The notes under the pieces are model-generated. The model did no database searches. It was not told the origin of the DNA and worked only from the letters and a program-made list of their open reading frames with translations. Positions 50,195 to 56,429 of a DNA stretch of 64,000 bases are shown here, one piece after another (the stretch's first letter is position 1; each line of letters opens with the position of its first letter). Source of the stretch: Lineolata rhizophorae (Eukaryota > Ascomycota > Dothideomycetes > Lineolatales > Lineolataceae). Where the stretch lies: NCBI GenBank assembly GCA_010093515.1, contig MU001689.1, positions 427,502 through 491,501 of the forward strand. The letters run 5' to 3'. Made by a program: the position numbers and the translations under genes.

Positions 50195-51297
50195 CGCGCG
50201 CGTGTGCCCGTATGCTATCACCCGGTCCAGCCCGATCTATCTCGTCGAGGGTTGGCCGCCTCCCAGCCTCAGCATCTCGTAAACTCCGGTCCTGTTGATG
50301 CGGTTCGCCGCCCCAATGCCGTCTCGATGAGCGCCCCGCAGCGCTCGGTCCAGCAAGTTCGAACGTCTCGATGTGCTTCGCAGCTCGCGATCTTGAACCA
50401 GCTCGGCAAAAGCCGTTGCGGATCTGGCCCTTCGGGCAAAGTTCACGGAAAGTTAGAGTCGAGCAAGCGTGTGCGCCGGCGCGTGATAGGGCCCCAAGCC
50501 GGTTCTTGCGGGTTGCCGTAGTTGACGGCTACCTTGATAGAGACGGAAGCGTCGATAAGGCCAATCACCATCGTCGGGATGCGGATGTGGTATGTGTTGC
50601 GGCGGTAGACGCCGCCGGCGAAGCTGTTTCGTTTTGCGCGATTTCCGATGACCTGGCGTTAGTTCTAGGGTCCCGGTTTGCTTCTCGGCCTTGCTTGTTT
50701 TACTCGGAAATTTTTGTTGCGGCACGATGCTAAGCCCGGAGATGGGGCGAGTGTGCTGAGGATGTGATTGCGGGGGAGCTCTGGACCAGTAGGATGCGAT
50801 GGTCTTGCCTGGCGGCGTCTGTGATCAAGCCACCTCCGACGACCGAGAACGGGTTCCTGATAAAAACTCCGTCAAACGTTCCCGTCGTCAGCCAATGGGG
50901 TTCCGGACCGAAATCACAGGGACGACGTCTTTCTTCGCGGCCTTGGTCGTCGCCACACCAACGCGCCTTCCTCATGATGCCGACGTCGTTCATCGAATCA
51001 ACAATGCTGCATAGCATTTCGAGCCCCTTGGCCTTCTCGCGATCATGGTTTTATACACCGTCTAGCTTGGCCGGTGGCTGTCGAAGTAGCGCCGCATCTA
51101 CGCGACGTAGATGTTTGCAAAGTTGAAGCCCGTGACGACCAGGCCGCAGCCCCAGCGCCGGTGGTACGACACTAGGTTGTCGTTGCGGACGTTGAACACA
51201 CCGTCCAAAAACGTGAAGTCGTACTCGATTGTCTGGTGGCCGCAGACGTGGAAGCCACTCTTAGTTTCGGCTACTAATGCTTTCGTGTCCGATATGT
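50195..51297 (-). pseudogene. Broken sugar-phosphate cyclase (DHQ-synthase superfamily; desmethyl-4-deoxygadusol synthase-like, MysA-like)
   Basis: An intact enzyme of this type would cyclise sedoheptulose 7-phosphate to desmethyl-4-deoxygadusol. Reading the minus strand, family segments occur in the right order but in shifting frames: TIEYDFTFLDGVFNV (about 51230-51185), a YHRRWG-type segment, [63 protein letters not shown], a [12 protein letters not shown] segment, LPEGQIRNGF, NRTGVYEMLRL and DRVIAYGHT (about 50205). The frame is interrupted by at least three stop codons (for example after IYVA at about 51107) and by about eight or more single-base insertions, and roughly ten residues are missing before NRTGVY. 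Two insert-like stretches, between GIMRK and the GGG motif and again after ITDAA, end in CAG and look like introns. The C-terminal quarter after YGHT is not recognisable. It lies next to an intact O-methyltransferase and an ATP-grasp ligase, which supports the assignment. Confidence 0.8.
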
Positions 51298-52443
51298 TGG
51301 ATGAGAGCGTTGTGAGGTCGCACTAGAATACGATGTCACTATAAAAAGGGAATTTAATATACATATAAAATATTAAAAAAAAAAGAGATGTAGTTGAAAC
51401 ACTCTAGAATGCAGTATTTGCTTCGCTTAAGACCTTTTTTCAAGCATCCAGGCTGACGGGCTTTAAAAGAAGGGGTATCTAGAGGATATCCTTAACACTC
51501 GAAGATGGAACGTTCCGCGGGAAGTTGTTTAAGACGTTAAGACTCTCAGGAGCTTAGTGAATTTCAGTCCGAATCGTGGTGAATACCGCATCAACCTAAG
51601 CCCGTAAGACCCGTAGAACAGCCTCGGACATCTACTAACAGCTTCTCTGCGATCCATTTCCCCACTCACGTCTTGCGCATCGAAAACGCATTCTAATTCA
51701 GTGAGATACTCACGACATCTTCCGCACCGTCAGGGTCTCCATTAAAATTCCGCGATTCCACAACATTCGTATGTCAAGGACCCCGCGCCCAAACGGTCCG
51801 ATGCGCAAACGCCTGGACGGAAGAACTGGCGCACTACCCGGTAGCGTCTCTTGGACTTCCGAGATTCTATTTGGCCGAGATATTGCCATGAGTCGGTTCC
51901 GAGTCTAAATATCTAAAGCGTTAAGGCAGTCAATGCACAGGTCGGGACCGGATCGGTGCGTGAGTTTGTGCTTAAGAAATCTAGGTGTCTAGATCGGGGC
52001 TCTCGGGGCTTGAACCGTGGATCGGAACGAAACTCAATTCGGGAACAGGCGGGAGTCATCACGCGAGGTCTGAATGTGCGAACGCGTAAAGTGACAAGTT
52101 GGACACCGCATCGAAGACGTGTAATGGCGGTGCAGAGTGAATGACTCGAGCATGCGGAGTTAGTGGAATTGTTAAGGCTTTACAAAGGTGAGTGCTTCCG
52201 ACGCCTTTTCGGAGCGCCGCTTTTGCAGACATCATAGCGCATAGCATACCACCTGGTTCCGGAGTGTGTCAGTGGTCTATATTACATTGTGAGCTCGAGA
52301 TTGATTGACTTTGATGTAGAGAATGACTTCTCGGATCAATTTTCCGGATATCTTAAAGAGTGCGACGGGGACAGGCAAAATTATTACAGATAAGTTACCC
52401 CCTACAGTTTGACCGTGTTTCCACACCCCTAGCTAGAGCGCAT
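51298..52443. other. AT-rich spacer between cyclase pseudogene and O-methyltransferase gene
   Basis: The part at 51330-51400 is very AT-rich, with an A/T run next to the 5' end of the broken cyclase. The remainder is of mixed composition and has no supported gene. Confidence 0.5.
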
Positions 52444-54344: not shown

Positions 54345-56429
54345 ATGCCCGGACGAGCAATGTTTCAAAACTACAGGATTCGTAGCTTGGCCTTGATATT
54401 TCTGTCCTTCGTTGCTCTGCCTCTTTCAACTGCGATTGCGTTCTGTTCATACTCCATCGGAGTTTTCAGGTCCCGTAGCACGTCTCGTTCTTCGCATTCT
54501 GCAAGCGGAGATGAATCTACCGCGCCAGGCTCTCTATCTCGCACCAATGTCGCGCATAATATCTCCTATAGCGGTTCTGGTCCCTTTGAGACGACTCCTT
54601 TTTCATACACGAATCCCATTCCAGCTTCACAGTCGCAACGACGACGCTCATCCCAAGATAATCAGAAAACTGTTCTTGTTACCGGCCTGTCCATGGCCAA
54701 AGGTCTTGTACTGGCACGTCTATTCCACCAAGCCGGGTATCAGGTCATTGGAGCAGACATGGAACCTAGCGGCATACCCATTCCCGGGCGATTTTCCTCC
54801 TCACTCGCTGCGTTCTTTCGGCTTTCTCCGCCAACAACGCTAGGTGCATCACCGCATCCGCAAGCCACAGATGCTCCCTCTGCTCTAGAAGAAGGAGTTG
54901 ACGCTTCCGCATACATCAGCTCCCTCATCAGCGTGATTCGCACAATAAGAGCGGATATATGGGTTAGTGTTTCGGCCGCTGCATCCGTGCTCGCAGACGC
55001 CGAAGCCGCAGAAGCGGTCCGCTGCCAGACCACCTGCGTACCCATTCAGTTCGGCGTGGAAGCGACGCGGATTCTGCACCGCAAGGACTTGTTCGCCGAA
55101 TGGCTCGTTGCAAACGGGTTCAGTGCTCCGCTGACCGGCGTCGTCCACGACGCCGAGGAAGTCGAGGAGTTCCTCGAAACGCACGCCAGCAAGCCGAAGC
55201 ACGGGCGAAAGAAATCCAAGGGGAAAGATGCCAACATTGCATGGTGGAAAGGTAGTGGATCGAACAGCGGACCCTCGAGCCCGGTCAAAGAGAGGGTACA
55301 GCGAGAGCGACGCAGTTCCGCCCCTACGCCCGGATCGCAAGTGCGCGAAGCGACTACGGAAAATCGGCGCTTCATCCTCAAGCCTCTCTCGCTCGGCGAC
55401 GCCGCCAGAGGCGACATGACGCTTCTTCCGGCGCGCATGGTCGAAGAGACGTGGAATATCCTGCTCCACCGCCTCCCGTCTAGCAATCCGCCGCGCTCTC
55501 TCGACGCCGCCACGACAAAGCATAGCAATGGGCCGTGGATCCTACAGGAATACGTAGAAGGGCAGACGTTTTGCACCTTCGCGTTAGTCATCCGGGGCAA
55601 AGTCAGAGCGTTTGTCGCTTGCAGGTCGTCGGACATGCTGATGCGGTACGAAGCACTTCCGGCGAGCGGCGCGCTGAGCCGGGCTATGGAGACGTTCACG
55701 CGCGATGTCGCGGCCGGGGGGAGACATAGGAGCTACGCGGAGGCTGTTGTCGAGGGTAGGATCGGGGGCGGCGCTGTGGGTGGAGAGGACTTCACGGGGC
55801 ACTTGTCGTTCGACTTCATCATTCCCGACGAGGACGTGCGTGCGGCGGGTGCGTGTGCCGATCCACATTCTGTCAGCTTGTTCCCGATCGAGTGCAATCC
55901 GAGAGTCCATACGGCGGTTGTGTTGTTCAACGGCATGCCTGGGTTGACGGAAGAGTACCTGGAGGCGTTGCATGACGAAAAGCGAAGCGGGAAACAGAGG
56001 GGAATCCCCGGTACCAGCAGCAGCGACTTCCACGAGGTTGAACACTCGATTTACGGCAAGACCTCGCAATCGACGGCAGACTCTCCTCTAGAAACGGTTT
56101 TCGAGAATGGAGCAACTGCTGTCCTACACCCGTCCAACCCACCACCGTACATTTGGTACGCGCATGAACTGCCAGCATACCTTGCTAGGACGTTGGAGCA
56201 CGTTATGAATCCATCGTTGGATTCGCTGGTAGCTAACGTGACAGAGATGATTGAGCTCGCAAGGCTTCTGATAACTGGTCACGACGGTAATTTGGTATCG
56301 TGGGATCCCTTGCCATGGTTGTGGGCAAATCACGTCTATTGGCCGTTGCGTCTGGCTCTGCGAGTGCTCTGGGGTGAGCCGTGGAGCAGAGCAAATGTCA
56401 GTACAGGGGAAATATGCAGCTGCACCTGA
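54345..56429 (+). CDS. ATP-grasp ligase, MysC-like, with N-terminal membrane anchor
   Basis: Single exon, 694 aa. By family and context it would join an amino acid to 4-deoxygadusol to give a mycosporine; the amino acid is unknown. Seen: an N-terminal hydrophobic helix (about 15-38, LALIFLSFVALPLSTAIAF); a Rossmann-like pre-ATP-grasp segment from residue 110 (VLVTGLSMAKGLVLARLFHQ); FGVEATRILHRKDLF; an ATP-binding lysine strand RRFILKPLSLGD; the hinge WILQEYVEGQTFC; SFDFIIPDED; and the magnesium-binding FPIECNPRVHTAVVLF with Glu 516 and Asn 518. These are the complete ATP-grasp core. A basic, Ser-rich insertion lies between about residues 285 and 340 (KHGRKKSKGKD). The protein is longer than bacterial MysC because of the anchor, the insert and a C-terminal extension of about 130 residues. 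A downstream ATG (MFQNYRIRS, 54360) is an alternative start. Confidence 0.83.
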   Translation: MPGRAMFQNYRIRSLALIFLSFVALPLSTAIAFCSYSIGVFRSRSTSRSSHSASGDESTAPGSLSRTNVAHNISYSGSGPFETTPFSYTNPIPASQSQRRRSSQDNQKTVLVTGLSMAKGLVLARLFHQAGYQVIGADMEPSGIPIPGRFSSSLAAFFRLSPPTTLGASPHPQATDAPSALEEGVDASAYISSLISVIRTIRADIWVSVSAAASVLADAEAAEAVRCQTTCVPIQFGVEATRILHRKDLFAEWLVANGFSAPLTGVVHDAEEVEEFLETHASKPKHGRKKSKGKDANIAWWKGSGSNSGPSSPVKERVQRERRSSAPTPGSQVREATTENRRFILKPLSLGDAARGDMTLLPARMVEETWNILLHRLPSSNPPRSLDAATTKHSNGPWILQEYVEGQTFCTFALVIRGKVRAFVACRSSDMLMRYEALPASGALSRAMETFTRDVAAGGRHRSYAEAVVEGRIGGGAVGGEDFTGHLSFDFIIPDEDVRAAGACADPHSVSLFPIECNPRVHTAVVLFNGMPGLTEEYLEALHDEKRSGKQRGIPGTSSSDFHEVEHSIYGKTSQSTADSPLETVFENGATAVLHPSNPPPYIWYAHELPAYLARTLEHVMNPSLDSLVANVTEMIELARLLITGHDGNLVSWDPLPWLWANHVYWPLRLALRVLWGEPWSRANVSTGEICSCT

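Follow-up and report, generated by a model that had tools for sequence, protein, structure and literature searches.

A mycosporine-type locus of Lineolata rhizophorae with a dead cyclase gene beside intact O-methyltransferase and ATP-grasp ligase genes

The window analysed here is a 64,000-nucleotide stretch of contig MU001689.1 (positions 427,502 to 491,501) from the genome assembly of the fungus Lineolata rhizophorae (GCA_010093515.1; 31 Mb, 48 contigs), over which the own-genome searches were also run. Between window positions 50200 and 56429 lie, adjoining one another, the relic of a cyclase gene (− strand), an O-methyltransferase (OMT) gene (− strand) and a gene for an ATP-grasp ligase (+ strand). 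A first-pass annotation, made from the letters of the DNA, had described a broken cyclase beside intact OMT and ATP-grasp genes and had read the group as a mycosporine-type gene cluster broken in its first gene and intact in the later ones; both descriptions stand. The features are as follows.

51295–50200, − strand: relic of a DDGS/MysA gene (2-desmethyl-4-deoxygadusol synthase), matching MysA residues 1 to ~272 of 409
50966–50857, − strand: candidate intron in the relic, GC..AG ends, from intron-aware alignment
50808–50624, − strand: candidate intron in the relic, GC..AG ends, from intron-aware alignment
50201–50153, − strand: candidate third intron in the weak tail of the relic, seen in three of four intron-aware settings
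53467–53219, − strand: OMT exon 1, 83 codons, with ATG at 53467, from the sequence
53218–53122, − strand: OMT intron, GT..AG, phase 0; matches of the spliced product to catechol OMTs continue across the exon junction
53121–52531, − strand: OMT exon 2, 196 codons and stop, of catechol-OMT class by its matches to solved structure chains
53468–54344, no strand: 877 intergenic bases separating the start codons of the divergently oriented OMT and ATP-grasp genes; no MysB remnant was found in 53540–54344
54345–56429, + strand: intact single-exon ATP-grasp ligase, MysC-like, 694 amino acids, from its open frame and family match

Reference proteins came from a plasmid of Nostoc sp. HK-01 with genes in the order mysA, mysB, mysC, mysD; these names were assigned in the present analysis, the first gene being of dehydroquinate-synthase type, the second an O-methyltransferase and the fourth, which lies further along, of D-Ala-D-Ala-ligase type. 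Nostoc MysA matched window positions 51295–50093 (− strand), spread over three frames, with a frameshift-tolerant alignment score of 273; 8/8 random window stretches scored 33–52, and the reversed MysA protein 36. The match is convincing as far as LDRVIAYGHT (MysA residues 263–272 of 409), a form of the LDRVIA-x-GHT signature segment that is quoted for Phaffia Ddgs (PMC10057719). Alignments continue to MysA residue 310–378, but this tail is weak and was not counted, and the C-terminal third of the relic is unrecognisable.

The relic is not a complete open MysA gene, carrying at least five frameshifts and three in-frame stops. Intron-allowing alignments scored 331–381 and needed 5, 6, 7 and 7 frameshifts under four settings, with three stops each; intron-free alignments needed 5 and 8 frameshifts in two settings, with five stops, and the loosest setting 12 frameshifts and six stops. 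A healthy intron-split gene was rejected as an explanation, the frameshifts (5–7) and the three stops persisting under all four intron-allowing settings. This DDGS gene is dead, and its decay goes back a long way. Both candidate introns inside the convincing match start with GC, not GT, and are either rare introns or the result of splice-site decay.

The relic is of MysA type rather than dehydroquinate-synthase type. A copy of the shikimate enzyme was rejected: an 835-residue piece of the same genome's AROM protein, containing the dehydroquinate-synthase domain, gave no match to the relic at an expect value (E) of 10, and the relic therefore descends from a DDGS. The distant cyclase type of three cyanobacterial loci (L069, L084, L089) was rejected too, since 0/3 matched the window at E 0.01, a threshold at which the MysA-like proteins of loci L053, L055 and L090 do match; two of the three gave weak pieces in the relic (E 0.13 to 2.5). 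The cyclases of these three loci are 38–40% identical to Nostoc MysA (at least 70% for the other 66 of 69 loci), and perhaps represent a different cyclase type within the same kind of cluster.

The OMT gene comprises two exons totalling 279 codons, with a GT-AG intron and no stop inside. Its DHWK and ADN motifs, which we take to be the S-adenosylmethionine (SAM) and metal motifs, align with those of solved catechol OMTs (COMTs), so that the earlier description of an OMT with SAM and metal residues in place is upheld and the SAM-binding and metal motifs of the COMT class are present. The best solved match of the spliced protein was chain 5zy5_A, ‘probable catechol O-methyltransferase 1’ (157 bits), which we take to be a protein of Schizosaccharomyces pombe, a yeast that is not known to make mycosporines. 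Other COMTs scored up to 139 bits, and at E 1e-20 the matches were COMTs in 27/27 cases, one of them a fusion. Exon 2 alone had 40 matches at E 0.001, 27 of which were COMTs (88–117 bits; best other match 55 bits).

Nostoc MysB behaved differently: among the best 60 of its 72 matches, the highest was 3r3h (125 bits), caffeoyl-CoA OMTs scored 92–105 bits, and the COMT chains that best match the window OMT scored 38 bits or less. One chain named as a catechol OMT, 2avd, did score 103 bits among these 60, and is presumably human COMTD1, a caffeoyl-CoA-type relative. Cyanobacterial mysB has been labelled a caffeoyl-CoA OMT (PMC7693272). The window OMT and Nostoc MysB were 24% identical in a 123-residue region around the SAM site; an own-genome search with Nostoc MysB returned the window OMT at E 0.018 and a match on contig C2 at E 1.5, with nothing convincing, and six MysB queries against three intergenic stretches recovered no MysB gene or remnant above shuffled controls. 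By sequence the OMT is of COMT class and not of MysB class, and the name MysB, under which the gene was originally entered, is wrong as a family name.

Whether the gene belonged to the pathway is a separate matter. Two Naganishia genome papers name the mycosporine OMT ‘catechol O-methyltransferase’, possibly as a domain label only (PMC12204325, PMC8875396). Going by these labels, the fungal pathway may use a catechol-class OMT, and the window OMT, which by position occupies MysB's place, may have performed its step. The alternative, compatible with the other readings considered below, is that the OMT is an unrelated, general fungal COMT, only the cyclase and ligase deriving from a mycosporine locus. 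This is a substantial possibility, which we would place a little short of evenly balanced: the closeness to 5zy5_A, the thin similarity to MysB and the missing MysB remnant speak for it, while the Naganishia labels speak against it, as does the fact that the gene, the sole PF01596 match detected in the genome and a single match in the own-genome search, occupies the position of the OMT in the fungal DDGS-OMT-ATPG order. A checkable point is raised, namely whether the methyltransferase of the fungal pathway is a recruited COMT or a relative of cyanobacterial MysB.

The ligase frame runs for 694 codons with no internal stop, where mononucleotide shuffles averaged 25 stops (minimum 11 in 500 shuffles), and encodes a protein with a hydrophobic N-terminus, low-complexity insertions and a MysC-type C-terminal tail. 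Its best family was NF005315 (125 bits; next family 16), below the family cut-off of 406 bits, Nostoc MysC scoring 560. Nostoc MysC was matched at E 6e-25 (23% over 437 columns), and by tblastn the match extended to MysC residue 458 of 464. The ligase shared 109–129 identities in 372–377 columns with 16 cyanobacterial MysC proteins and 61–94 in 281–375 columns with nine other ATP-grasps; the C-terminal tail is common to the ligase and MysC, the other ATP-grasps used being without it. In an unrooted tree of these 16 and nine proteins, the ligase fell outside both the cyanobacterial MysC clade (support 99) and the outgroup clade (support 100). The ATP-grasp core is conserved, with 24/26 family-wide invariant columns (invariant in 23 other sequences) kept, among them D490, E516 and N518, which we assume to be the metal ligands. 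An AlphaFold model of low confidence (mean pLDDT 55, pTM 0.61), used solely for the ATP-grasp-like core, had ATP-grasp enzymes as its best predicted structural matches. No close second copy was found in the genome, the nearest match, on contig C13, having E 7.3e-4 and 24% identity over residues 57–277.

The earlier assignment of this gene to MysC therefore survives in part: in identity it is nearer to MysC than to the nine other ATP-grasps used, and 24/26 invariant columns are there, but it lies outside the cyanobacterial MysC group and retains only 15/55 MysC-diagnostic columns (and 6/40 outgroup-diagnostic ones). Judged from these comparisons, the ligase is a distant MysC relative, outside though nearest to that group. 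In cyanobacteria MysC marks the mycosporine pathway, since 69/78 MysC loci hold a MysA match (three of them distant); a MysB match, in some cases weak, is present in 72/78. The nine MysC loci without a MysA match in the stretch analysed were L071 and L074 (Brasilonema), L021, L059, L070, L072, L076, L080 and L088. Several of these are short contigs; L071 and L074 are 21-kb loci, and are possibly orphan second MysC copies, as L038 and L040 come from these strains too.

Disabling changes were distributed unequally between the three genes. The lesion test counted eight lesions in 278 relic codons (the signature ends at residue 272), and at an even rate ~20 would be expected in the ligase and ~8 in the OMT, where 0/694 and 0/279 codons were affected. 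The conditional probability of this outcome was 4.5e-5 for the ligase and 3.9e-3 for the OMT with eight lesions, 1.9e-3 and 0.031 with five, and 3.7e-6 and 9.6e-4 with ten. The ligase having no lesions against eight in the cyclase, it was probably maintained by selection while the cyclase decayed, from the break onwards or at least through most of that period. Constraint on the OMT is less strongly argued, and we put it forward weakly. The proposal that the later genes are under apparent constraint thus gains support, more for the ligase than for the OMT.

An exon-by-exon search of the genome, in an assembly that may miss a gene, found no second DDGS-type cyclase with either PF01761 or Nostoc MysA. 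PF01761 gave two matches over cut-off, AROM on contig C8 and the relic, while Nostoc MysA found AROM, the relic in two pieces and one further match at E 2.7 on contig C37. Such a search can overlook a gene split into many short exons; the broken relic was nonetheless detected. As no other DDGS was found, the route from sedoheptulose 7-phosphate to 4-deoxygadusol has most likely been lost in the host, and the suggestion that the pathway is fed by another cyclase did not hold up, AROM being the only other dehydroquinate-synthase match over cut-off.

We favour, with about even confidence, the reading that the sunscreen pathway is dead and that the OMT and ligase were retained for a use independent of DDGS. 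The locus would then be the remains of a three-gene, fungal-type mycosporine locus (DDGS, OMT, ATP-grasp) in which DDGS died and the sedoheptulose route to 4-deoxygadusol was lost with it. The simplest present use of the OMT would be the reaction typical of its class, methylation of catechols or other enediols, and the ligase, going by its family, would join an amino acid or amino alcohol, in an ATP-driven reaction, to a cyclic enol or enolone other than home-made 4-deoxygadusol. The argument for selection is that both genes are intact while the cyclase gained at least eight disabling changes. The pairing of a long-dead first committed enzyme with an intact ligase makes a natural test of whether ligases of MysC type accept substrates besides 4-deoxygadusol; no description of a fungal cluster combining a dead DDGS with a kept OMT and ATP-grasp was found in those parts of the literature that were searched.

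A number of observations weigh against this retention of both genes for a new use. In the lesion test, rates are taken to be equal and the time span single, the result varies with the way lesions are counted, and present and recent selection are not distinguished; an OMT of general catechol type would in any case be retained. Third-position GC content was lower in the ligase (0.61) than in the OMT (0.70) or an adjacent methyltransferase frame (0.83), which would also fit relaxed constraint. The low number of MysC-diagnostic columns in the ligase counts here too, and of 133 near-invariant MysC columns (79 cyanobacterial rows) a Paenibacillus ligase has nearly as many (55) as the window ligase (64). 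The same Paenibacillus ligase scores 364 bits on NF005315, above the 125 bits of the window ligase, and since it has no annotated adjoining MysA-like gene, membership of NF005315 alone is no proof of MysC.

One rival to retention is staggered decay, in which the whole pathway became useless, the cyclase broke first, and the OMT and ligase are lagging behind with no new use. Loss of the mycosporine cluster has a precedent in Phaffia, some strains of which are reported to be without it, including CBS 6938, which is without a region of ~26 kb (PMC10057719, PMC5103461), although the reported losses are of the whole cluster whereas here DDGS is dead and the other genes are intact. The lower third-position GC of the ligase and the disappearance of many MysC-diagnostic residues would also be expected. 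Set against this are the lesion counts themselves (given equal rates and simultaneous onset, the contrast between 0/694 ligase codons and 8/278 relic codons has the P of 4.5e-5 quoted above) and the ligase's near-complete set of family-wide invariant columns, and we consider staggered decay unlikely, if far from negligible.

A more specific version of the favoured reading, which we offer as a speculation with little probability attached, is that OMT and ligase are still active together, as a two-gene module which, since DDGS was lost, makes an amino-acid conjugate of another kind. An enediol or catechol of other origin would be methylated by the OMT, and the ligase would attach an amino acid or amino alcohol; if true, the product would be a sunscreen-like or signalling compound without a sedoheptulose-derived ring.

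That the pathway still works, its cyclase step being met by a missed or unassembled DDGS, by dehydroquinate from AROM, or by uptake of 4-deoxygadusol from algae, cyanobacteria or other fungi, seems very doubtful, as the searches that caught a broken relic should have shown a whole gene of similar exon size, even if one with many short exons can escape them, and the uptake version is without support here. On precursor supply the published evidence is divided. Single deletions in Phaffia are reported to show that mycosporines require DDGS, OMT and ATPG alike, and deletion of DDGS abolishes mycosporines while deletion of AROM does not (PMC10057719); a shikimate supply, also raised in the first-pass annotation, is therefore unlikely if the host works like Phaffia, a different fungus. 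For a cyanobacterium, by contrast, these compounds are reported to be linked to the shikimate route, with the OMT shared (PMC7693272), and Colletotrichum species are reported as mycosporine makers in a study that sought an NRPS-type (non-ribosomal peptide synthetase) cluster in their genomes and found none (PMC4974774).

The nearest known counterpart of the locus is the MYC cluster of Phaffia rhodozyma, likewise in a fungal host, in which the same three kinds of gene adjoin in the order DDGS-OMT-ATPG, with the OMT in the middle (PMC10057719). The OMTs are of similar length (284 aa in Phaffia, 279 aa in the window), but the Phaffia DDGS is intact, with 14 exons and 477 aa, and ATPG has 500 aa, compared with 694 aa in a single exon for the window ligase. 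Orientation differs as well: the Phaffia DDGS is opposite to OMT and ATPG, whereas in the window DDGS and OMT are co-directional and the ATP-grasp gene is opposite. The mysA-mysB-mysC genes of the Nostoc sp. HK-01 plasmid resemble the locus in that MysA matches the relic and MysC matches the ligase from the core to near the C-terminal end, but cyanobacterial MysB is of caffeoyl-CoA type and the window OMT of catechol type, and the window ligase stands outside the cyanobacterial MysC group. To 5zy5 and mammalian COMT the OMT is similar over ~170–200 aa (157 and up to 139 bits, respectively), with DHWK and ADN common to both; unlike them, it sits in a mycosporine-type locus.

Other ATP-grasps of NF005315, such as those from Paenibacillus, Pontibacillus and Paraburkholderia plasmids, are MysC-like by tblastn, but are without the MysC C-terminal tail and adjoin F390-synthetase-like genes and, in 2/3 cases, a ketoacyl synthase III gene; the 6.8–8.3 kb covered around them hold no annotated MysA-like gene. 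The bacterial loci L092, L097 and L099 (also L094 and L096) have MysC-like ATP-grasps near F390/CoF-synthetase-like genes, adjoining a ketoacyl synthase III gene as well in L092 and L097; loci of this type (L092, L097, L099), in unrelated bacteria, apparently represent a different pathway built on the same ligase family.

No repeats of at least 20 bases were found in 49500–57500 around the relic, in checks that did not include a search for transposon proteins; three short tandem arrays lie elsewhere in 46000–64000, and the stretch 51300–52520 occurs once in the genome. An Rfam scan of the window gave no match, and no relatives of the OMT or ligase were found in viral contigs. The gene content of the window is fungal, and two nearby open frames carry DUF7025 and fungal AAA+ lid domains, as would be expected of a filamentous ascomycete. 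Past the ligase, at 57705–58661 (− strand), lies a gene for a cyclopropane-fatty-acid-synthase-like methyltransferase (PF02353), which we take to be, probably, a fungal sphingolipid C9-methyltransferase.

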